Positions 24,432-37,407 of a stretch of DNA of 64,000 nucleotides are shown one piece after another. Under the pieces are notes generated by a model. That model was not told the DNA's origin. It searched no databases and saw nothing but the letters and a program-made list of their open reading frames with translations. The translations under genes were made by a program, and so were the position numbers. Within the stretch, counting starts at the first letter, position 1. Every line of letters begins with the position of its first letter. This DNA comes from Bacteroidota bacterium. GTDB lineage: Bacteria > Bacteroidota > Bacteroidia > B-17B0 > Aurantibacillaceae. The DNA lies in NCBI GenBank assembly GCA_018267825.1, contig JAFDXR010000003.1, positions 124,001-188,000 on the forward strand, written 5' to 3'.

Positions 24432-25235
24432 TTAATTTCTTTGACCGGATGCCTCATGTGAAGCATTGCGCTCTCGGTTTTCACGCATCATCCACAACAG
24501 GAAAACGAAAGGTGCGAGAGCCGACAGGATGTGTTTGATGGTATGGCCGCTAAATCCGGATAAATGGCGGTAAATTTCCCAGTCGAATGCTTCCGAAATT
24601 TTTGCAAGCAGGTATATACCGGCAATTATCCAGAAATAAATCCGGTTCCTGTCGTTCCCCTGAAACATAAGCAGGATGAGCGGAATAAGGATCATGGGTA
24701 AAAACTGAATAAGCATATAAAAACGCAGATCGCCCACTCCCCTGCTCTCTGTCATGTACCAGTACATAACGGATGCCAGCCCCATGAAAATAAAAGGCCA
24801 TAGCACATAATGCCCCAGGTGCCTGCTCATGTAGCGACCAATGACCACCGAAGTAAAAGCCATAAAGGCGATGGTCATGGGCAAGCGATCCCAAACCAGG
24901 CGTTGATTTGAAGGTGCATGATGATAGTATGCAGAGCCAATTGCCGTGAGAAAAATGCCCAAAAAGAAGACGAGGCTGCTGCGAGAGAAAACGGAATCAT
25001 ACCCTGCACTTCTCCATTTCATGAGTGTATAAATTATGCCTGCTAAACCAACCGCAAGGAACAGTAAATTGGATGCAACGTTCCAAAAGTTCGGAATCCC
25101 GCAAACAGCCCTCTGGTCGGCAAAGTTGTGGAATACCGGATCCTGTGGCACCGGCGCATGTAACAAAACAACAACAATTGCTGACAGTATCACAGCACCC
25201 AGGATACCATACCTTACTATTGGCTTAACAGTCAT
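24432..25235 (-). CDS. Ceramidase-like (CREST superfamily) membrane hydrolase
   Basis: A 267-aa protein with about seven membrane helices. The alkaline ceramidase pattern is present: a first motif SAYYHHAPSN with a following DRLPM, and a last motif SGHTIKH. In characterised alkaline ceramidases the Ser/His of the first motif, an Asp and the two His of HxxxH hold the catalytic zinc; all have counterparts here. N-terminal QRAVCGIPNFWNVASNLLF also fits the family. Bacteroidota commonly make sphingolipids, so a ceramide substrate is plausible, but related bacterial proteins may act on other amides. It begins 15 bases after the YiaA-like gene, so both are probably driven by the promoter at 25706. 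Confidence 0.82.
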   Translation of the reverse strand: MTVKPIVRYGILGAVILSAIVVVLLHAPVPQDPVFHNFADQRAVCGIPNFWNVASNLLFLAVGLAGIIYTLMKWRSAGYDSVFSRSSLVFFLGIFLTAIGSAYYHHAPSNQRLVWDRLPMTIAFMAFTSVVIGRYMSRHLGHYVLWPFIFMGLASVMYWYMTESRGVGDLRFYMLIQFLPMILIPLILLMFQGNDRNRIYFWIIAGIYLLAKISEAFDWEIYRHLSGFSGHTIKHILSALAPFVFLLWMMRENRERNASHEASGQRN

Positions 25236-27000: not shown

Positions 27001-28368
27001 TCAGCGTTTGCTGAACTCCATGCTGAGCTGGCATTTCCAGGATTTCAGGCGCAGGTATAAATCCTTCAGTTTATTTTTATTACGTGTTTGCCTGTAGGTT
27101 TCCACGTTTACCCATTGCAGTGCATGTTCATAGAAACGGCGCGGATAGGTACGTTCAAAATCGATGTCGCGGTCGGTACTTGTTTCCCAATCCGGGTTGT
27201 ACAAAAATTTATTCTCCACTTCTTCATAAAGACGGGTCCCTTTGATCGGATAGGCAATGGTGATGGTGTAGAATGTCGGATCTGATTCGACCAGGTGCCT
27301 GATAGTTTCGCGAATGTCTTCTTTTGTTTCGCCGGGATAACCGAGCATCAGAAAAGTGCCCGCTTCAATTCCATAGGTTTTGGCGAGGCGGATCATTTCG
27401 CGCGTTTTGATAACATCCACACGACGATCCATGGCATCTATGATTTTCTGTGATCCGCTTTCGGCACCGATCCATACACGCCTGCAGCCACTGTCTTTAA
27501 GCATTCGCAACACATCTTCGTTCAACCGGTCGGCCCGCGAAATAATTTCATAAGGTGTATGAACGCCCTGATTCTTAACCTGCTCTGCAAACTCCTGCAA
27601 CCAGCGATGATGAATGGTAAACACGTCATCGACAAACCAGATCATGTCGGGCTTATATGTTTCCTGTAGCATGCGGAGTTCCGCAGCAACCGCTTCGGGC
27701 GAGCGCCGGCGATAGGTACCGCCATATACGGCGCGGCTGCACCACTTACAGGTGTATGGACAACCACGCATGGTGCTTACACTCATCATGCTGTAACCAT
27801 GATGTTGTTTCCAGGCCTGTAGGTATTTTGTGAAATCAATTTTATGCCGGGCCGGGAGTGGCAGGGTATTTATATCGCGGATGAGCTGGCGCCCGGCGGT
27901 CTGTATCAATTTACCATCACTATCACGGAATGCGAGGCCGGCAACCAGTTCCGGGCGATCCGTATGTTTCAACAAATCAAGCATGGTTTCTTCGCCTTCA
28001 CCTATTACTATAAAATCAGCGCCACTATCAAGAAAAGATGAAGCATGATGGCGTACTTCGGGCCCGCCCAGAATTATTTTCATGGCAGAAAGCTCCGGGT
28101 TATTTTTCACTTCGCGAATAATCCTCAACACATTGATCTTGGTCATGAGGTTGGTATAAACCGCCAGCACATCGGGCTTTGTGCGTTGGATCTGCTGCAG
28201 GAGATTATCGAAAGAAGAGAATGTGGAGTCGAACACATCGTTTGCAAAACCATGCTGTTCCAGATAAGCCGAAATATAAAGGATTCCCAGCGGCACATAG
28301 GGTTTCATGATCCTTAATTCTTTCGGATCTTCATTGAGAAAATAACCATGTGTCAGCAGTATTTTCAT
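27001..28368 (-). CDS. B12-binding-domain radical SAM protein (copy C)
   Basis: A 455-aa protein, last of a six-gene run. Residues about 1-150 form a cobalamin-binding-type Rossmann domain (PYVPLGILYISAYLEQHGF; IILGGPEVRHHASSF). The radical SAM barrel follows with the cluster motif CPYTCKWC (Cys 203, 207, 210), which binds a [4Fe-4S] cluster, and later VWIGAESGSQKIIDAMDR and FLMLGYPGETKEDI. Class members carry out B12-dependent C- or P-methylations or ring rearrangements. No DxHxxG motif for lower-axial His ligation is seen, as is common in this class. I chose ATG at 28368, not the longer frame, because it overlaps the upstream stop by four bases (ATGA) and aligns with the paralogue at 29137. 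Substrate unknown. Confidence 0.88.
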   Translation of the reverse strand: MKILLTHGYFLNEDPKELRIMKPYVPLGILYISAYLEQHGFANDVFDSTFSSFDNLLQQIQRTKPDVLAVYTNLMTKINVLRIIREVKNNPELSAMKIILGGPEVRHHASSFLDSGADFIVIGEGEETMLDLLKHTDRPELVAGLAFRDSDGKLIQTAGRQLIRDINTLPLPARHKIDFTKYLQAWKQHHGYSMMSVSTMRGCPYTCKWCSRAVYGGTYRRRSPEAVAAELRMLQETYKPDMIWFVDDVFTIHHRWLQEFAEQVKNQGVHTPYEIISRADRLNEDVLRMLKDSGCRRVWIGAESGSQKIIDAMDRRVDVIKTREMIRLAKTYGIEAGTFLMLGYPGETKEDIRETIRHLVESDPTFYTITIAYPIKGTRLYEEVENKFLYNPDWETSTDRDIDFERTYPRRFYEHALQWVNVETYRQTRNKNKLKDLYLRLKSWKCQLSMEFSKR

Positions 28369-29165
28369 GCTTCTTTTTTTTGCATCACGATGATGTAATG
28401 ATCGGCATAATTCGCGAAAGCGCCTATACCTCCCATACATTTTTCAAACAATATCAGTACGTTCCCAAAAACAGGATACTTTTTGATCCAGTCTTCGAGG
28501 TACGAGGGTGGTATAAATAAGCCGATGGGTTTTATTGTTACTGTATGAAAATGATCCTGGAATATTGATTCCACCTCCTTCGGAGAATAATACCATGTCA
28601 GGAACTTCTGTTCATTAATCACTGTATCCACACCGGTTTGCGAAGTGCGCCTGGCCGCTTTTGTTTTTTCGCCTCGCCAGCTAAAAAAGAAACGTTCCCA
28701 CCAGCATTTACGCCCCATGATCACCGCTATAAAATATCCATCTGCGTTAAGCCAACGGCGGGCATTCGCTGCCAGTGACCTGAACTCTTCCGGATTCAGG
28801 CAGTTCAGTCCTCCGAAATCGGAAAACACGTATCCCAAATTATTTATATCCGTTTTCGATGTCAGTTCCTGTATAGACGACACAATGAACTTTACCTGCT
28901 GCTTACTGTCCTTCTGTTTCGCTACACGGATCATCTCCGGTGAAATATCGGTAGCAGTGACTTCGATGCCCTTCTCGGCTATATAAACGGCATCTTCACC
29001 GGTACCGCAATTCAGTTCCAGCAGAGCACCTCTCTTCTGAGCCAGGCATGGGTCCAGGTATTTAAGCACCCTTGCGCGTTGTGCTTTACCTATCCATGAA
29101 TGCGTAAAATGCGCATCGTAGGTTGAGGCGTATGGATCAAAGGCCTGAGGCGACACCGGGTTCAA
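28365..29165 (-). CDS. Class I SAM-dependent methyltransferase
   Basis: A roughly 266-aa methyltransferase. The SAM-binding motif I is LLELNCGTGEDAVYIAEKG, followed by VTATDISPEMI. The N-terminal FDPYASTYDAHFTHSWIGKAQR is typical of a methyltransferase family often found in lipid and polyketide-like clusters. No ATG exists near the 5' end: TTG at 29165 or GTG at 29156 (after three residues) must be used, overlapping the end of the upstream radical SAM gene by 29 or 20 bases. That suggests translational coupling and tuned expression. Its stop overlaps the start of the next radical SAM gene (ATGA). The substrate is unknown; an intermediate shared with the flanking radical SAM enzymes is likely. 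Confidence 0.87.
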   Translation of the reverse strand: MNPVSPQAFDPYASTYDAHFTHSWIGKAQRARVLKYLDPCLAQKRGALLELNCGTGEDAVYIAEKGIEVTATDISPEMIRVAKQKDSKQQVKFIVSSIQELTSKTDINNLGYVFSDFGGLNCLNPEEFRSLAANARRWLNADGYFIAVIMGRKCWWERFFFSWRGEKTKAARRTSQTGVDTVINEQKFLTWYYSPKEVESIFQDHFHTVTIKPIGLFIPPSYLEDWIKKYPVFGNVLILFEKCMGGIGAFANYADHYIIVMQKKEA

Positions 29166-30603
29166 TGGTTTTAAGTTTTTGCTTCCAGATCCATTTCTGT
29201 GGAATGAGGCGAAGCAATGCCGCTACCTGTTTGGCATTGTAGAGAGATGGCTTGATGAATAACAGGCGCATGGCATGCAATCCGCGCCGGATCCTGTACC
29301 GGATATGGATGTAACGGTGGAGCTCTTTATAAAATTCTTTACTGTACGTATTCTTAAACATGAGATCGAGATCATCGCTGTCGGTCCAGTTTGTTTTTGT
29401 TTTGAGCTGTTCTTTTACCGTATCATAAAATTTTGTACCAGGGAGCGGGTATGACACCGAAGCGCCGATATCGTCGGGCAGGAGATCATTCACCATGTCC
29501 ATGGTTTTACGGATGTCATCCAGTGTTTCGCCCGGATAGCCAAACTGCAGAAATAAAGCCACATGGATGTGATGTTTTTTTAACAGGCGACTTGCTTCAT
29601 AAATCTGTTCAACCCTGGTGCCTTTATCCATGGCATCGAGTATTTTCTGTGAGCCGCTTTCGGCGCCCATCCATACCATATCGCAACCGCTCTTCGCCAG
29701 GTGTTCGATGTTATTTTCCCCGAGCAGCAGATCGGCACGGCTCTGGATTTTATACCGGATTTTCAATTGCTCTTTATTTACGGCCACTGCAAACTCCTGA
29801 AGCCATGATGGTTTGAGGCCAAATATATCATCAGCAAACCATACATGGGTGAAGCCAAATTTCTGTTGCCATGTTTTGATCTCACGAACGATGTTCTCTG
29901 CGCTGTGCGAATTATAACGGTTGCCATAAATGGGTTTGGCGCACCAGTTGCATTTATAAGGGCAGCCGCGTGTTGTAACAAAATTGAGTGAAAAATACCC
30001 ATGATGCTGCATCCACATAGCTTTATATGGTTCAATATCGAGCAGGTCCCAGGCAGGGTGCGGCAAGGTATCGAGGTCTTTGATGACAGCACGTTTCGGT
30101 GTTTTCAAAACCTGATGATCCTCGGCATAGGCAAGTCCGGCAATCAGTGATTTACGGTCTTCAGACTTATTCTGAATCAGCTGGCAGATTTCGAGAAGTG
30201 TTTGTTCAGCCTCGCCTATGATAATATAATCAGCACCATGCTCCAGGTATTTTTCACCATGGTCTGTGGCATCCGAACTGGAAGTGATAACCCTGCATCC
30301 CTGGCTTTTGGCATAGGTTTGCATATCAAAGGCCGCTTCCCGCATATTGGTCAGGCACATCTTGGTGAGGTAATTAAAACCATCATCGTATATCACGAGG
30401 ATATCGGGTTTATATCGTTCAATGGTCGGTCGGATATCGTGTGCGGAATCGGCAAACATGGTATCGAATAACTTAACATGAAAACCGTTTTCGCGCAGGT
30501 AAGCCATGGCATAAAGTGTAGCCAGCGGCGGATAAGGCATGGCGGTGCGATACTGCTTGCTGTCGAATTTCAGAAAATAGCTATGTGTGAACAATACCCT
30601 CAT
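29137..30603 (-). CDS. B12-binding-domain radical SAM protein (copy B)
   Basis: A 488-aa paralogue of the 27001-28368 protein: compare THSYFLKFDSKQYR / THGYFLNEDPKELR at the N-terminus and HHGYFSLNFVTTRGCPY / HHGYSMMSVSTMRGCPY before the cluster. The B12-binding-type Rossmann domain covers residues about 1-165. The cluster motif CPYKCNWC places Cys at 214, 218 and 221. VWMGAESGSQKILDAMDKG and FLQFGYPGETLDDI complete the barrel. A basic helical tail follows (about 420-488). ATG at 30603 overlaps the stop of the NTase gene (ATGA); the longer frame from 30657 is rejected. Chemistry and substrate are unknown. Confidence 0.88.
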   Translation of the reverse strand: MRVLFTHSYFLKFDSKQYRTAMPYPPLATLYAMAYLRENGFHVKLFDTMFADSAHDIRPTIERYKPDILVIYDDGFNYLTKMCLTNMREAAFDMQTYAKSQGCRVITSSSDATDHGEKYLEHGADYIIIGEAEQTLLEICQLIQNKSEDRKSLIAGLAYAEDHQVLKTPKRAVIKDLDTLPHPAWDLLDIEPYKAMWMQHHGYFSLNFVTTRGCPYKCNWCAKPIYGNRYNSHSAENIVREIKTWQQKFGFTHVWFADDIFGLKPSWLQEFAVAVNKEQLKIRYKIQSRADLLLGENNIEHLAKSGCDMVWMGAESGSQKILDAMDKGTRVEQIYEASRLLKKHHIHVALFLQFGYPGETLDDIRKTMDMVNDLLPDDIGASVSYPLPGTKFYDTVKEQLKTKTNWTDSDDLDLMFKNTYSKEFYKELHRYIHIRYRIRRGLHAMRLLFIKPSLYNAKQVAALLRLIPQKWIWKQKLKTIEPGVASGL

Positions 30604-31565
30604 GCATACAGTCGAATCTGAAATTGTTTCTCGAACGTTTCTATTTTTTCCTTCCATGAATTCAGCACCTTATTCTGGAAGCCGTGGGTGTGGCGTTTAC
30701 ACACGTTTTTACGTGACCGGAACTGCAGTTCAAAATCTTCTTCAGCCATGCCGGGATATTTTTTCCGCCAGCGGTTTAAGGTATAACTCAGCAGTTTATT
30801 ATCGAGCCAGTCGCCAAATGAGCCGGCACACAAGGATTCTGCCAGTTTCCTGAAAACAGATGACGGGATCGGTTTTGCTTTATCTGAAGCGGACTCTGTT
30901 TTGTTTGGATAATATTGTTTATACCAGGCATTATGTTGCAGGATATCCTTGTAAAAATTGTAGTTAACTGTTGGTATAAGGTGTGCCAGTTCTGTGGCTA
31001 CGAAGGCATTCTTTTCGGGGATCACCAATTCCGTAGCTCCGAGGAAATAATTAATGCACCAGAATTTTTTCTTATCACCGGGCAGCATTTTATAGCGCAT
31101 GATCAATAGGGTACGACAGATCCACAAACGATTGGGGCGGGTCATGATGAGATAATCAATATCTCCATCGCGGTCGTAATAATTTTTAGACAGTCCGCCC
31201 GAAAGACACACGCCTTCTACAAAAGGAAATGAAGCTATTTTCAGGCTATAGCGGTATGCTTCGGGCATCACTTTAGCGGCGCCGGCATTGCCATGTGTTC
31301 GCCTGCTAATTGTCTCAGGTGCGGCATGAGCCGTCAATATATAATCACCTTCGTGTTTCAAAAAACCACGCCTGAATAAATCTTCCAGTTGTGCATTGTA
31401 TTCAGGTGTGGACAGGGAAAGTGCGGAATTGGCAAAGAGCTCTTCCCGTGTTAAGGGATAGCTGAACACGTCGAAATAGAGCATGGTTTTAAGCATCTCC
31501 ACCTGGTGTTGTGTGATTATTTCCTGCACCGTTTCGATAGTAAGGTAATGTTTAAAGTTAACCAA
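30600..31565 (-). CDS. Nucleotidyltransferase-fold protein with N-terminal winged-helix-like domain
   Basis: A 321-aa protein. Residues about 15-80 look like a winged helix (MLYFDVFSYPLTREELF ... LFRRGFLKHEGDYILT). Residues about 115-145 carry the nucleotidyltransferase signature: SGG at 122-124, then DGDID with Asp 135 and 137 as metal ligands (LSGGLSKNYYDRDGDIDYLI). This is the minimal polymerase-beta-like fold used for adenylylation or nucleotidyl transfer to small molecules or proteins. The C-terminal half is basic with aromatic patches. It overlaps the upstream methyltransferase gene by eight bases and the downstream radical SAM gene by four. It may activate or tag the pathway substrate; the real acceptor is unknown. 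Confidence 0.72.
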   Translation of the reverse strand: MVNFKHYLTIETVQEIITQHQVEMLKTMLYFDVFSYPLTREELFANSALSLSTPEYNAQLEDLFRRGFLKHEGDYILTAHAAPETISRRTHGNAGAAKVMPEAYRYSLKIASFPFVEGVCLSGGLSKNYYDRDGDIDYLIMTRPNRLWICRTLLIMRYKMLPGDKKKFWCINYFLGATELVIPEKNAFVATELAHLIPTVNYNFYKDILQHNAWYKQYYPNKTESASDKAKPIPSSVFRKLAESLCAGSFGDWLDNKLLSYTLNRWRKKYPGMAEEDFELQFRSRKNVCKRHTHGFQNKVLNSWKEKIETFEKQFQIRLYA

Positions 31566-32253
31566 TTTTTACCGACGTACCCGGTTCAATTGCATAAATA
31601 AAATTGGTTTCCCACCATATTTTCCGGCGTTCCAGCTCACGGAGTGTCCAGCCTTCGCAGCCGGCAAGATCTGAAATGCGCCGGATATCGCAATTGTCAG
31701 CCAATATCATGTAGAGTCTGCCGCCAGGTTTAACGTGGCTGCCGAGTTGCTTAAATAACCGGACAAAGTATTCTCCTTCAGGGCCGCAGTTCCAGGCATA
31801 CTGACTTTCGGAGTTGACCGCATTAAAAAAATAAGGAGGATTAATAACGATTGTATCAAAAGTATATTCACTTAGCTTTTCAAACAGATCCGATTTTAAA
31901 ACACGATACCCCGAGCTTATCTTTTGTTCGTTGCGTTTAAAATTGATCTCTATATTTTCGACGGCTGTGCTGCTGATATCAATGGCTGTAACAGATGCCG
32001 CTTTTGTTGCCATCAGCAGACTGATAAGCCCTGAACCACTGCCTACCTCGAGGCATGAATGCCCTTCCAGGTTTTGCCTGTCAATGAAATCAAACAAATA
32101 TTTCGTGCTGAAGAAAAATGCGGGATGAAACACACCAGGTAGTACGACAAGATCAAAGCCTTTGTAACGGTAGCGTCGTTCCTTTTGCAGGTAACGGGTT
32201 AACAGCGGTTTCACAAGCCTGTCGGCCATTTTCTTAAGCAGTGGTTCTTTCAT
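31558..32253 (-). CDS. Class I methyltransferase with NPPY motif (PrmC/RlmG-like)
   Basis: A 231-aa methyltransferase. Motif I is CLEVGSGSGLISLLMA and motif II VTAIDISSTAVENI. The catalytic INPPYFF motif is that of N-methyltransferases of the PrmC/HemK and RlmG type, where the NPPY loop binds a planar amide or base nitrogen. A family-typical F(F)ST(K)YL region precedes motif I (VLPGVFHPAFFFSTKYLFDF). It starts one base after the end of the radical SAM copy A gene and overlaps the NTase gene by eight bases, so it is translated as part of the same run. It could instead be a release-factor- or rRNA-type enzyme caught in the operon, but its position argues for the pathway. Confidence 0.83.
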   Translation of the reverse strand: MKEPLLKKMADRLVKPLLTRYLQKERRYRYKGFDLVVLPGVFHPAFFFSTKYLFDFIDRQNLEGHSCLEVGSGSGLISLLMATKAASVTAIDISSTAVENIEINFKRNEQKISSGYRVLKSDLFEKLSEYTFDTIVINPPYFFNAVNSESQYAWNCGPEGEYFVRLFKQLGSHVKPGGRLYMILADNCDIRRISDLAGCEGWTLRELERRKIWWETNFIYAIEPGTSVKIG

Positions 32254-32254
32254 A

Positions 32255-33754
32255 TCAGAAGCCCTCTACTTCCGGGCGGCGGTATTTCCAGTGATGGTGC
32301 AGAAAGCGAATCTCTTTTGGCAGGTTGTATATTTTCGTTTTATAACGCACGGCACTGATGAGTTTAATGATGCGTCGCTTCAGGGGCGTTAGCTGCACAT
32401 CAGAAACTGTCGGGTAATAACCATTTAAAACGGTTTCAAAATTCTTGATCTTATCGATCATGTATGGTTTTAACCAGGGTGTCAGCGGGTTTTTCCGAAG
32501 ATCGAAATTCTCCCAGGCCGGACTGATCCAGTCTTCCAGTTTTTCGGGGAATGAAAATCCACTGGCCTTCACCTGCTCATACATCTCTGAACCTTCTGTA
32601 GGCACGGGGCTGTAGGTATATATAATGATTTCGGTTGCGGGGTTCAGTTTCTTTATCTCACGAATAAATTCAATATCATCATCGATCTGTTTATTCACCT
32701 GCGCCTCTGTTGCAGCCGGTGTGCCCAGCACAAAGGAATACTCCGGAATGATATCAAAGCGACGGAGCCTTTCCGCAAAAGCAGCAATCTGTGCCGCCGT
32801 TTGGGTACCGCCTTTATCCATCTGTTTCAGGATGGCGTCGTTTCCGGTTTCGGCACCATAAAAAATCATTTTACAACCGGCCTCCCGAATCAGCTTCAGT
32901 GATTCGTCGGAATACCTGTCCATGGTATCGATACGGGCTTCGCCCCACCAGACCATATTTTCAGGCTTTATCAGTTTGGCAAATTCCACAACACGTTTTT
33001 CCGATACAAAAAAATTATTATCGTGAAACTCAATGGCATTCCCTCCGAAATTATCTTTCAGATACTTGATGTCGTTGTATATTTTCTGAGCCGACTTGCC
33101 TTTCCAGCGGGCATTATAGATGGGAACCACTGCACAAAAAGAACAAGTAAAGGGGCAGCCAAAACTGCTATGATAAGCTATGGTTTTTGTTCCCAGGTAT
33201 GTTTTGCCAAGATACTGCCCAAGGGGATAAAACCTATTGAGCTTTTCGTATGGCAAGGCAGGCAGATCGTCTATCTGATAAATCTCATCTTTGCGTGTTT
33301 TCACAATGCTCCCGTTTTCCTTGAATATCAGGTTAGAGAGGTCATTATATGTCTGCTCATTCTCCAGGCGATTCAATAATTCGGGAAAACACTTATCGCC
33401 CATGCCGTTTATAATAACATCCACAAACCCCGAATCCAATACAGCCTGTGGTTGATTCGACGGGAAGTATCCGCCCCAGATAATTTTAACATGAGGGAAA
33501 TGTTCACGGATCTTTTTTGAAAAGGGAATAGCCTGTTTCAATTGCGGCCCCGGCATGACGGTACAGCCAAAAAAACGAACGCCGTTTTTTTTAAGTTCAG
33601 CTTCTATTTTACTCCAGGGATCTTTCTCAAGATTGCCATCAATGATCGTGTAATCGTATTTACCCTCAATACTGGCAGCAACCTGCAGAATACTGTTGGG
33701 AATACGGGGCTTATGATTAAGCGCGCGCGGATTGAAAAGCAGAACTGAACTCAT
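32255..33754 (-). CDS. B12-binding-domain radical SAM protein (copy A), first gene of the run
   Basis: A 499-aa protein, less like the other two. Residues about 1-150 form a BchE-like cobalamin-binding Rossmann domain (MSSVLLFNPRALNHKPRIPN; TIIDGNLE; IIWGGYFPSNQPQAVLDSG). The cluster motif CPFTCSFC has Cys at 200, 204 and 207. MIFYGAETGNDAILKQMDKG and YSFVLGTPAATEAQV follow. A C-terminal region of about 120 residues (from ISPAWENFDLRKNPLTP) is helical and basic, as in oxidative or methylating B12 radical SAM enzymes acting on lipids or large ring systems. No DxHxxG motif. It has its own -7-like element and opens the run of six genes. Confidence 0.88.
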   Translation of the reverse strand: MSSVLLFNPRALNHKPRIPNSILQVAASIEGKYDYTIIDGNLEKDPWSKIEAELKKNGVRFFGCTVMPGPQLKQAIPFSKKIREHFPHVKIIWGGYFPSNQPQAVLDSGFVDVIINGMGDKCFPELLNRLENEQTYNDLSNLIFKENGSIVKTRKDEIYQIDDLPALPYEKLNRFYPLGQYLGKTYLGTKTIAYHSSFGCPFTCSFCAVVPIYNARWKGKSAQKIYNDIKYLKDNFGGNAIEFHDNNFFVSEKRVVEFAKLIKPENMVWWGEARIDTMDRYSDESLKLIREAGCKMIFYGAETGNDAILKQMDKGGTQTAAQIAAFAERLRRFDIIPEYSFVLGTPAATEAQVNKQIDDDIEFIREIKKLNPATEIIIYTYSPVPTEGSEMYEQVKASGFSFPEKLEDWISPAWENFDLRKNPLTPWLKPYMIDKIKNFETVLNGYYPTVSDVQLTPLKRRIIKLISAVRYKTKIYNLPKEIRFLHHHWKYRRPEVEGF

Positions 33755-33836: not shown

Positions 33837-34994
33837 TTACTGCTTCCTGAGTTTTGCCAGATAACTTGGCTCATAGTTAGAAGGTTCCCGGATATCTTCA
33901 GACACTTCTATCCACCTGCAAGGTGCGTGTGGATTCACATCCCGGCGGGCATAACAGTCTTTCAGAAAATCGAATTCGGGATGCTGATGCAGTTTTTCGT
34001 GTCGCAGAATACGTTTCAGTCGATGTTCGGACATGTGCCATTCTTTTGATAATCTCCGGAGTGAAGGCTCCATATAACTGATGTAGATAAGCTCCATGAA
34101 CGTGTGGTCCTGTTTGTTTTCAAAATTTATTTCGGAATGCAAAGTCCGGCGGTATTCGTCGAGCAATTTATTCTGATGGTTTACCAGCTCTCCGAATTGA
34201 GCGGGGCTCATTGAATCCGGAAGACTATCTGTGATTTCAAATAAAGGCTGAAACACCAGTTCATGGCACCACACACATTTAGCAGGTTTTCCGGCCGCTC
34301 CCAGGCTTTTCGGACTTGCATCCGCGAGGTTTCCCTGCCCGTCATATACAGCAAAACGTAATTGCCCATTGGGCATTACATCCATAACCTCATAATATTG
34401 CGGTTTGAACTGCCCCAGGGCCAGGTCCCCGCTCCCCTCTTCCGCTACAAAAATTGTATTGAGAACAGAATCGGCGGCCGAAAAGGAAAGTCTCCTGTTA
34501 TGCATAGCCACTGTAGAGTGCAGAAGCGGGAATACCTGCTTAGCGGATGAGCCGTGTTTTCCACTGAAGTCTGCGTAATGCGCCGGCACACCTGTAATTG
34601 CGTAATAATGCGGACTGCTGCCAATGGTCAGTGCTATAAACTGGCCAAGATCTATACTGTTGTATTTACGATACTGCCTTGTGTTTTTTATACTGTCGGT
34701 AATGGCTTCGAGTACCTGCAGTGCCTGATCATTAAACCCCAGTTCATGAAAACGGATTTTGAAAGTTGTGCTGTCGATCCAGTCCAGGCTTTTATCAAAA
34801 CAACCTTTAGGTAATTCTGCGCCGAGGTACGACAGGGCCCACAGGAATCCGGTTCTGTTCTTCTGCCAGGAATCGCCCTCATAATTCAGGGTATAGGAAA
34901 TGGTCAGTGATACCTCCCGTCTCGAAAAAAAAGACATGGCAATTCCCAGAAATACAGCCAATACCATTGAGCCCGTTATTTTCTTAAGCGCCAT
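33837..34994 (-). CDS. Membrane-anchored or exported protein with one CxxCH (haem c-like) motif
   Basis: A 385-aa protein with an N-terminal hydrophobic segment (about 8-24, ITGSMVLAVFLGIAMSFF), so it is exported or membrane-anchored. One CVWCH motif lies at Cys240-Cys243-His244 in AGKPAKCVWCHELVFQPLF. CxxCH is the attachment site of haem c; a WCHE variant also occurs in Bacteroidota and Planctomycetes proteins of unknown role. Distal Met or His ligands cannot be assigned. The rest is unrecognised, with a basic C-terminal third (LRRLSKEWHMSEHRLKRILR). It overlaps the FkbM gene by 19 bases, so it is co-translated with it. A metal or redox role is the natural reading, but zinc binding is not excluded. 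Confidence 0.68.
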   Translation of the reverse strand: MALKKITGSMVLAVFLGIAMSFFSRREVSLTISYTLNYEGDSWQKNRTGFLWALSYLGAELPKGCFDKSLDWIDSTTFKIRFHELGFNDQALQVLEAITDSIKNTRQYRKYNSIDLGQFIALTIGSSPHYYAITGVPAHYADFSGKHGSSAKQVFPLLHSTVAMHNRRLSFSAADSVLNTIFVAEEGSGDLALGQFKPQYYEVMDVMPNGQLRFAVYDGQGNLADASPKSLGAAGKPAKCVWCHELVFQPLFEITDSLPDSMSPAQFGELVNHQNKLLDEYRRTLHSEINFENKQDHTFMELIYISYMEPSLRRLSKEWHMSEHRLKRILRHEKLHQHPEFDFLKDCYARRDVNPHAPCRWIEVSEDIREPSNYEPSYLAKLRKQ

Positions 34995-35917
34995 TGAATC
35001 TTTTTCATCAGGCGGTATAGCGCCGGTGGTGTTATATTCATGAGTAATCCCGAAAAGAATGATTTGTCCTGAACCGAAGGAATTTCATTCATAATAGCTA
35101 TTTCAGAAGCTGATAATCCGGCGTCCTGTAAAAAGTGAATAGCCAGGCTTCTGTATCCCAGCCAGCTCAGTATAAGGCCCTTTCTGATCCGTGTTTCCTG
35201 ATCTTCATTCCTGTCATTCAGTACGTAAATGGCATCGCCGCAAGGGGCATAATGCGCGTGATTTTTCGACGAGCCGAAAACAGGTTTGTAGGTATCGCGG
35301 TAGGTCATAAAATCGACCAGTGTAAAATCATGACTGCGTAAAAACTGATCAATATCCGAAAACACGGCCTGGTCTTTATATACGGGAATAGTTGACACTT
35401 CCACCTTCAGAACATTGATCCTTCTCTGCTTTAAAAGCTCCTCAGCCCCGCGGAGGATCAAAAGCTCCGAGCCTTGCGTATCAATCTTCATATAATCAAT
35501 GGGATCCGGAAAATCTTTGAAATAGGCGTCGGCTGTATCGAGTGCAATTTTTATTTTTTTATTGGCCTGTATGCTTTTTTCCCAATGTTTGTATTCTTTG
35601 TATTTACCAAAATGCTTTGAATAATTATGAGTATCGGGCTCCAGCAGACTGCTCATCGACGCATGGTCGGTGATCCAGAATTCGGCTTCGCCTTGTTTAT
35701 CGCTCAGTCCAAGTTCCCGGAGGTAAAGCGCTTTGAAAGGATGCTGATTGTATCGTTCCTTTAATTTGTGAAACTCCTCGGGGGTTGGCTCAAATCCGTG
35801 AACATGGGTCATGGCCGCAATCTCCGGAAAGAAATCCAGAAAATCTTTTGCGCCGACATCCACAAAAACAAAATCGTGAATATGGTATTTCTCAAAGATA
35901 TGTTTCAGCTCTGTCAT
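34976..35917 (-). CDS. FkbM family methyltransferase
   Basis: A 313-aa protein with the FkbM-type class I fold: FVFVDVGAKDFLDFFPEI (SAM-binding motif I), HGFEPTPEEFHKLKERY, LGLSDKQGEAEFWI, and the family hallmark YMKIDTQGSELLILRGAEEL. FkbM enzymes O-methylate sugars or polyketide hydroxyls. A C-terminal helical extension of about 70 residues (from LSWLGYRSLAIHF) follows the core. It overlaps both neighbours: by four bases with the GT87-like gene and by 19 with the CxxCH gene. With the glycosyltransferase next door, methylation of a surface glycan sugar is a reasonable inference. Confidence 0.88.
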   Translation of the reverse strand: MTELKHIFEKYHIHDFVFVDVGAKDFLDFFPEIAAMTHVHGFEPTPEEFHKLKERYNQHPFKALYLRELGLSDKQGEAEFWITDHASMSSLLEPDTHNYSKHFGKYKEYKHWEKSIQANKKIKIALDTADAYFKDFPDPIDYMKIDTQGSELLILRGAEELLKQRRINVLKVEVSTIPVYKDQAVFSDIDQFLRSHDFTLVDFMTYRDTYKPVFGSSKNHAHYAPCGDAIYVLNDRNEDQETRIRKGLILSWLGYRSLAIHFLQDAGLSASEIAIMNEIPSVQDKSFFSGLLMNITPPALYRLMKKIQWRLRK

Positions 35918-37407
35918 GGTTTTTTACCGATGTAACGTAACTTATAAAACCCGACAGCCTGATTCATATCGCTCATGCATACAATCAAAGAATCATTCAG
36001 CAGAAATGGCTTCTGTTTATGATCGTGTGATTCGGAAATCATTTTCCCTTTATATAAGATCATATTATCGCTTGCCTGCAAGAGGCTATCTTCCTTTGCC
36101 TGACCATTCAATAAATAGCTTTCCATAAATGTATGATCCCCCAGTGTACTGACTAAAGTTATGGAATCTTTCTTTATGGTGTAATCATAGAGTATCCCCT
36201 GTGTATTCTGTATTTCAAAATAACGGCAGGGTTCCGGATTAAATGTCAGATACCTGAAAGCAATAAGCAACATGCCCGAGACAAGGAGAACGGGCCATGA
36301 TATACGGGGTTTATATAAAGCCATGCAGATCGCGAAAATCAATACAAGACCCAGGATTCGCCAATACATCAGCATGAATGGAGCGTGCTGTAAATAAGAC
36401 AGAGGTATATTGATCGCCAGGAGCACACCTGCAAGGATAAACCACGTAAGGCCGCTTTGCTTTTCGGTAGTTGTAACGGATACAACAAAAGGAATTAACA
36501 TGAGCATCCCATAGCTTGTACTGTATCGCCCCACCATGAATGAAGCCAATAAAGTGATCCCAAACAAGGCTATGTTTTTTCGAGAAGACATGGCCATGAC
36601 GACATACAATACAATTGCATCAAAAAAACCTTCTATAACAGGTATCAGCCAGGGGGCATTCAGGTAAGGCGTTTTATTCTGTAGGGCATCGGCCGAAAAC
36701 AGGTTCAGTAAAAGCGTGTAAATACTTTGATTGCCATAATAATAAGGGCCCACAATATCATTCTGAAACAGCCGTGGTAAAACAGACTGTACGTAATACC
36801 CAACCATGCCGGGCCCTGCAAGCAATGCCGTGGCACCCATTAACATACCTGAGAATACGAATGTATACAGGATGCCCTTGTAGGCTTTACGAAACAGGAA
36901 GTACAATAACAGGAATACAGGAAAAATCTTCAGGCAGATACATAAGGCCAGCAATAAACCACTCCTGAGGTGCCTGCCGGCTTCCATAGCTATATATATT
37001 TCCATGAAGGCTGCTGCCAGCAACAGGTAAGTCTGCCCATGGTATATGTTGTTATACAACGGAAATAAAAACAACCATGGCACGAGGTACACTCTCGGCG
37101 ACAACTCCGGCAAACGTTTCAGGAAGCGAAGCCAGGAAAAACAGAATACAAGGAGACTGATACCATTGAACAGAAAACGCGCCTTGAGGCTGCTTAACCA
37201 CACGAAAGGAACATAAAAAACCAGGCTGAAAGGGGGGACCGGAATATAGTTCTCGAAAAAATTTTTCTCGCCGTAGGATGCGATCTGCTCATTGAAATGC
37301 GAAATACTCTGATAATCGGAAATGCTGAATTTTCCATCGAGCCACAGGCGACTGCCATAATAGTAGTTTCCGAAATCGCCTACAGGTGCATGCCTCGTTA
37401 TGAACAT
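35914..37407 (-). CDS. GT87-like (DUF2029) polytopic glycosyltransferase
   Basis: A 497-aa protein with about ten membrane helices and an extracytoplasmic C-terminal domain (last 90 residues). An Asp in APVGDFGNYYYGS sits where GT-C enzymes of the DUF2029/GT87 group place the catalytic Asp of the first large loop. NNIYHGQTYLLLAA and LCICLKIFPVFLL are also typical (compare the mycobacterial polyprenyl-phosphate-mannose-dependent enzymes). The donor is likely a polyprenyl-phosphate sugar and the acceptor a lipid-linked or surface glycan. The ATG at 37407 begins right before the catalytic loop and so would omit the first helix. The same frame stays open to 37518 and encodes a hydrophobic helix, but no ATG, GTG or TTG precedes it. 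Confidence 0.8.
   Translation of the reverse strand: MFITRHAPVGDFGNYYYGSRLWLDGKFSISDYQSISHFNEQIASYGEKNFFENYIPVPPFSLVFYVPFVWLSSLKARFLFNGISLLVFCFSWLRFLKRLPELSPRVYLVPWLFLFPLYNNIYHGQTYLLLAAAFMEIYIAMEAGRHLRSGLLLALCICLKIFPVFLLLYFLFRKAYKGILYTFVFSGMLMGATALLAGPGMVGYYVQSVLPRLFQNDIVGPYYYGNQSIYTLLLNLFSADALQNKTPYLNAPWLIPVIEGFFDAIVLYVVMAMSSRKNIALFGITLLASFMVGRYSTSYGMLMLIPFVVSVTTTEKQSGLTWFILAGVLLAINIPLSYLQHAPFMLMYWRILGLVLIFAICMALYKPRISWPVLLVSGMLLIAFRYLTFNPEPCRYFEIQNTQGILYDYTIKKDSITLVSTLGDHTFMESYLLNGQAKEDSLLQASDNMILYKGKMISESHDHKQKPFLLNDSLIVCMSDMNQAVGFYKLRYIGKKP

Follow-up and report, generated by a model that had tools for sequence, protein, structure and literature searches.

Cobalamin-dependent radical S-adenosylmethionine (SAM) enzymes mostly methylate carbon or the phosphorus of phosphinates, with a minority that rearrange their substrates or form rings (PMC13142503). 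The described systems closest to the genes considered here are BchE, HpnJ and PhpK (TIGR02026, TIGR03471 and TIGR04479), in which a B12-binding domain is joined to a radical SAM domain with a CxxxCxxC motif; AprD4 (PDB 6fd2), the radical SAM diol dehydratase of apramycin, whose substrate is an aminosugar; and proteins of nucleotidyltransferase (NTase) fold of the AadA, AAD(9) and MNT kind. To our knowledge, the substrates of most cobalamin radical SAM enzymes are not known. Here, we analyzed a stretch of 64,000 nucleotides from a Bacteroidota genome of the family Aurantibacillaceae (contig JAFDXR010000003.1 of assembly GCA_018267825.1, positions 124,001 to 188,000; hereafter the window), in which six consecutive genes encode three radical SAM proteins, an NTase-fold protein and two methyltransferases. 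We found that these genes recur across the phylum as a strictly nested module which, on balance, seems to tailor a surface glycan. The six genes, with the letters that a preliminary description of this DNA gave to the radical SAM proteins, are:

32255-33754, minus strand: rC (radical SAM A), B12-binding and radical SAM protein, 499 residues, CPFTCSFC (PF04055 47.7 bits, PF02310 37.9 bits)
31558-32253, minus strand: MTs, NPPY-type class I methyltransferase, 231 residues (PF05175 56.6 bits)
30600-31565, minus strand: NT, winged helix plus NTase-fold protein, 321 residues, motifs SGG..DxD and CxNY
29137-30603, minus strand: rB (radical SAM B), radical SAM protein with a B12-binding-type N-terminal domain, 488 residues, CPYKCNWC (PF04055 81.6 bits)
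28365-29165, minus strand: MT25, class I SAM methyltransferase, 266 residues (PF13649 53.4 bits)
27001-28368, minus strand: rA (radical SAM C), B12-binding and radical SAM protein, 455 residues, CPYTCKWC (PF04055 84.9 bits, PF02310 64.1 bits)

Transcribed from 33754 to 27001, the genes follow one another in the order rC, MTs, NT, rB, MT25, rA, and their five junctions are, in that order, a gap of 1 base and overlaps of 8, 4 (ATGA), 29 (at a TTG start) and 4 (ATGA) bases. The ATG starts of rB (at 30603, with the protein beginning MRVLFTHSYF) and rA (at 28368) are conserved and overlap the stop of the preceding gene as ATGA, while the open reading frame table lists longer versions of both, that of rB starting at 30657. 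The sequence bears out the six reading frames, their place on the minus strand and their touching or overlapping ends as the preliminary description gave them, together with its statement that the run has no space for a peptide precursor. Because such gene ends leave no room for a short precursor reading frame, we rule out maturation of a ribosomally synthesized and post-translationally modified peptide.

Upon surveying 87 genomes of the window's order, 392 evenly sampled Bacteroidota genomes and loci selected by rB only, we obtained a consistent picture of how the genes travel together; some contigs were fetched twice, in the order or phylum set and in the set of named genomes, so that locus counts are slightly redundant while genome-level counts are not. 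NT occurred in 38 of the 87 genomes, and the 34 order-level loci contained rB (31), MTs (31), rC (29), MT25 (27) and rA (18), with the exact order of the window in 14. In the phylum sample, 33 genomes carried NT; 28 of these also carried rB, and 17 of those 28 also rC, so that the three sets are strictly nested. Recurrence across Bacteroidota, which the preliminary description had put forward for checking, was thereby found. The co-occurrence of NT and rB had a Fisher p of 5e-38 (uncorrected for kinship), and the two genes lay at most 200 bases apart in 22 of the 28 genomes with rB. Among 57 full-length loci selected solely for the presence of rB, 55 carried NT, 55 MT25, 44 rC, 33 a glycosyltransferase (GT) of family GT2 and 32 a GT4. 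MT25 stood downstream of rB in 88 loci and rA downstream of MT25 in 29, one genome had rB fused to MT25, and 62 of 63 MTs homologues kept the NPPY motif. The grouping of these genes is thus far beyond chance. A search of named genomes with the rB alignment returned more than 560 relatives, of which the best 80 belonged, where the title names a group, to Bacteroidota, Ignavibacteria or Kapabacteria and included isolates of Mucilaginibacter, Niastella, Chitinophaga and Puia, whereas a search of genome contigs with the single NT sequence gave no match. In one locus, two NT copies of different subfamilies lay on opposite strands with about 9 kb between them, and rB adjoined only one of them. No locus with rA also held an amidohydrolase gene (0/34, versus 38/90 of the other loci), nor did any with a strict MTs (0/55), but we claim no trade-off for either combination, as a test that corrects for the tree leaves too few informative pairs. 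Our best reading is that NT, rB and a methyltransferase form the core, that rC with a methyltransferase forms a second step, and that rA is optional.

The surroundings of the module in relatives point to surface-glycan assembly. Its neighbours there include GT4, GT2, GT9 and GT87 glycosyltransferases, Wzx flippases, Wzy_C ligases or polymerases, PMT_2, an ABC exporter, FkbM and GNAT proteins, so that glycosyltransferases, a flippase and a polymerase or ligase stand beside the module as in a Wzx/Wzy-type glycan locus. In one Mucilaginibacter locus, for example, the order is ABC, GT4, GT4, amidohydrolase, methyltransferase, rC, methyltransferase, SPASM radical SAM protein, rB, MT25 and NT, followed by Wzy_C, GT4, GT4, GT2, a large protein without Pfam match and Wzx. 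Furthermore, NT is naturally fused to a GT4 in five genomes (656-798 residues); rB is missing from four of these five, of which three carry an MT25-like gene close by, next to a protein that, judged from its N-terminus only, starts like an NAD-dependent epimerase. The window itself adds three genes upstream of rC, on the same strand and with small gaps or overlaps:

35914-37407, minus strand: GT87 membrane glycosyltransferase (PF09594 87.6 bits)
34976-35917, minus strand: FkbM-family methyltransferase (PF05050 83.4 bits)
33837-34994, minus strand: exported CxxCH protein, without Pfam match

Judging operon structure from gene spacing, we consider it likely that a nine-gene run extends from 37407 to 27001 on the minus strand, with GT87 as its likely first gene and the six-gene set as its final two thirds. 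The reading of the six genes as one unit is supported, as first described, although the run does not start at 33754. That nothing known lies beside them is not supported, since the run also holds GT87 and FkbM, and Wzx/Wzy loci surround the unit in relatives. A scan for promoters and terminators gave signals no better than shuffled controls.

Several further observations concern these neighbours. GT87 was present in 14 of the 34 order-level loci, and in ten loci (including L058-L060, L063, L066, L067, L069 and L072) an M1-peptidase-like gene with a type IX secretion tail (Por_Secre_tail) lay directly upstream of it, which may be a linkage or only synteny. The CxxCH protein is exported or lipoprotein-like and carries one invariant haem-type motif, C[VILM]WCHE; it stood beside the module in 16 loci, with CxxCH in 16 of 16 homologues, and could possibly be a mono-haem partner. 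In four loci from several families (L115, L121, L122 and L055), a protein of TadA/cytidine-deaminase fold followed MT25 or lay divergently beside NT, while elsewhere the locus held an aminofutalosine-deaminase-like amidohydrolase, placing two unrelated aminohydrolase types with one module. Within the window, a ceramidase-like membrane protein (24432-25235, minus strand; PF05875 36 bits) is encoded between carB and the module, 1.8 kb from the latter.

The assignment of NT to the NTase fold held up. While the window's own NT gave only a sub-threshold Pfam NTase match, PF01909 (NTP_transf_2) matched all 34 NT homologues weakly (best E 1.3e-5), and an AlphaFold2 model (predicted local distance difference test, pLDDT, 92.7) comprised a winged helix, an NTase core and a helical end. 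Foldseek matched the model to MNT antitoxins, AadA and AAD(9), none at E<=0.001, and its winged-helix part to HrcA, IclR and MarR-type regulators; the predicted fold is MNT/AadA-like without a close solved relative. Residues D135, D137, C170, N172 and Y173 were invariant in a 34-row alignment, and 126 of 140 homologues contained the motif SG[GS]..DxD. We rejected an identity as a LicD/fukutin-type phosphotransferase (PF04991), for which no match was listed among 34 homologues at E<=1 or among the listed Foldseek matches.

The three radical SAM proteins are unequal: rB is part of the core, rC has a methyltransferase of its own as partner, and rA is an optional addition. The preliminary description had called all three B12 radical SAM proteins, and in all three Radical_SAM (PF04055) indeed exceeded its cut-off, as B12-binding (PF02310) did in rA and rC; nearly all radical SAM homologues kept the CxxxCxxC cluster motif. 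Over their length, rA and rB are 37% identical, and rA may be an rB-like paralogue; rC is remote from rB (25% identity over 276 residues). The predicted model of rB (pLDDT 88.7) had its closest solved folds in AprD4, MgmA, OxsB, TsrM, CysS and TokK, which include cobalamin enzymes. Against NCBIfam, none of the three exceeded a curated cut-off (BchE, HpnJ, HpnR, PhpK, AprD4, BzaD, MgmA, ladderane), the best score being rA to BchE with 153 bits against 481; scores so far under the cut-offs rule out a tetrapyrrole or hopanoid enzyme identity. The proteins thus do not fall into well-known families, and no curated pathway model fits the set, in keeping with the earlier statement that it matches no known pathway. 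C-methylation by these enzymes is plausible. The host genome encodes a B12-type methionine synthase, and a search of it for a SPASM radical SAM partner found none.

Gene content, nested co-occurrence, the glycan-locus context in relatives, predicted folds and the observed GT4-NT fusions incline us, by a modest degree, to regard the run as a set of genes that tailors a surface glycan, be it capsule, exopolysaccharide or lipopolysaccharide side chain, and that probably makes or decorates a sugar residue. For the substrate, the step order, the reaction types and the use of B12, we infer the following scheme. Much as AadA-type enzymes act on the sugars of aminoglycosides, NT would transfer a nucleotidyl (or phospho) group to a hydroxyl, either of a sugar or of a glycan intermediate linked to a lipid. 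The NT-dependent substrate would then undergo a B12- and SAM-dependent radical step by rB, which could methylate it at carbon or else rearrange or deoxygenate it in the manner of AprD4, OxsB or BchE. MT25 would methylate the rB product, rC with its partner methyltransferase (MTs here) would make a second modification, and the rB-like rA could add an optional third; in other genomes, different tailoring genes (amidohydrolase plus methyltransferase, or a SPASM radical SAM protein) surround the core, and the finished residue would be built in and exported by the glycosyltransferase and Wzx/Wzy genes. This dependency order, with NT first, rB and MT25 next, then rC and its methyltransferase, and rA or others as options, is suggested by the nesting, with NT placed first because it also occurs without rB, fused to a glycosyltransferase. 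The fusions tie NT to glycosyl transfer, and its fold ties it to enzymes that place nucleotides on sugar hydroxyls. In its full form, the proposal is that, phylum-wide and in a way not seen before, a winged-helix NTase nucleotidylates a sugar residue, which B12 radical SAM enzymes, as many as three, then alter at carbon while the glycan is being assembled; we consider this tentative reading doubtful.

Several observations weigh against glycan tailoring. The window's copy neighbours only GT87 and FkbM, with the Wzy_C genes of the host genome on other contigs, and gene context cannot name the module's substrate. B12-binding in rB scored just under the cut-off (29.1 versus 32.1 bits), although the fold of rB matches cobalamin enzymes. 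In NT, the next central strand after DxD, located by secondary-structure order and not by superposition, carries the invariant C170, N172 and Y173 and no acid; the third metal ligand and nucleotidyl transfer are therefore uncertain, as AadA-type enzymes appear to carry a third carboxylate where NT has Asn172. A perhaps missing third catalytic acid would also suit NT being a regulator, a winged helix joined to a degenerate NTase, with only the radical SAM and methyltransferase proteins acting as enzymes, and the likeness of the winged helix to known regulators fits this as well. Yet the conservation of SG[GS]..DxD and of D135 and D137, the translational overlap of NT with enzyme genes and its fusion to GT4 enzymes make such a role scarcely probable.

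Weighing the nesting, the fusions, the NT fold and known cobalamin radical SAM chemistry, we favour glycan tailoring. The main rival, though an unlikely one, is that the module synthesizes a building block in free, activated form, be it an unusual nucleotide sugar, a cyclitol or a nucleoside-like unit; NT would activate this small molecule, and the radical SAM and methyltransferase proteins would act on it before it is transferred to any glycan. A small amino-bearing substrate would suit the aminofutalosine/TRZ-ATZ-type amidohydrolase or TadA-like deaminase in many relatives' loci, and rC was 66-75% identical to 29 relatives across the window's order, as though the glycosyltransferases varied around an unchanging product; NT, however, is of the ANT/MNT kind and not a sugar-1-phosphate nucleotidylyltransferase, and the GT4-NT fusions suit action at the glycan step better. 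The recurrence of Wzx, Wzy_C and glycosyltransferase genes near the module, the lack beside it of a biosynthetic core enzyme of any small-molecule class, and its phylum-wide presence, with NT single-copy in each of eight isolate genomes, speak against a diffusible product, resembling an aminoglycoside or a nucleoside, that is exported as a secondary metabolite instead of becoming part of the surface. We consider such a product improbable, even though aminoglycoside and nucleoside chemistry offers well-known examples of both B12 radical SAM enzymes and ANT-type NTases, and rB and rA resemble AprD4. Tailoring of a lipid, such as a polyprenyl carrier or a ladderane-like or hopanoid-like lipid, is very improbable: the HpnJ, HpnR and ladderane models match at the superfamily level but score far under their cut-offs, no lipid-core genes recur, although four loci hold an AMP-binding ligase, and the ceramidase-like gene near the module is not among the families recurring in the compared loci.

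Overall, three cobalamin radical SAM enzymes, a defined NTase and two methyltransferases make up a strictly nested module in about 7% of the sampled Bacteroidota genomes, and since this defined gene set occurs in isolates of the four genera named above, its role is directly testable. If confirmed, glycan tailoring of this kind would link cell-surface chemistry to the supply of vitamin B12, and the surface glycans of Bacteroidota would gain residues that are C-branched or rearranged. In the full form of the proposal, which we consider doubtful, radical chemistry would act on a surface polymer or on the lipid-linked precursor of one.

Compared with described systems, rA and rB find their best models in BchE, HpnJ and PhpK, sharing architecture and cluster motif, yet their best scores are 112-153 bits against cut-offs of 481-600, and we saw no chlorophyll, hopanoid or phosphinate genes beside the module (phosphoenolpyruvate mutase was not searched for). 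AprD4 is the closest solved fold of rB (template modelling score about 0.7) and the best PDB sequence match of rA, but identity is 18%, rB and rA reach 85-94 bits against a cut-off of 500 for the AprD4 model, and no AprD3-type partner was noticed near the module, though none was searched for. To B12_rSAM_oligo (TIGR04295), a family of cobalamin radical SAM enzymes with a model name that hints at an oligosaccharide context, rA and rB score 81-85 bits against 400. NT shares with AadA, AAD(9) and MNT the NTase fold, the DxD motif and the PF01909 match, and differs from them by an extra N-terminal winged helix and CxNY. We found no published description of the module in the open-licence full-text literature. 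Its parts and its surface-glycan setting are of known kinds; what is new, as far as we have seen, is the core of NT, rB and MT25 together with the way it nests with rC.

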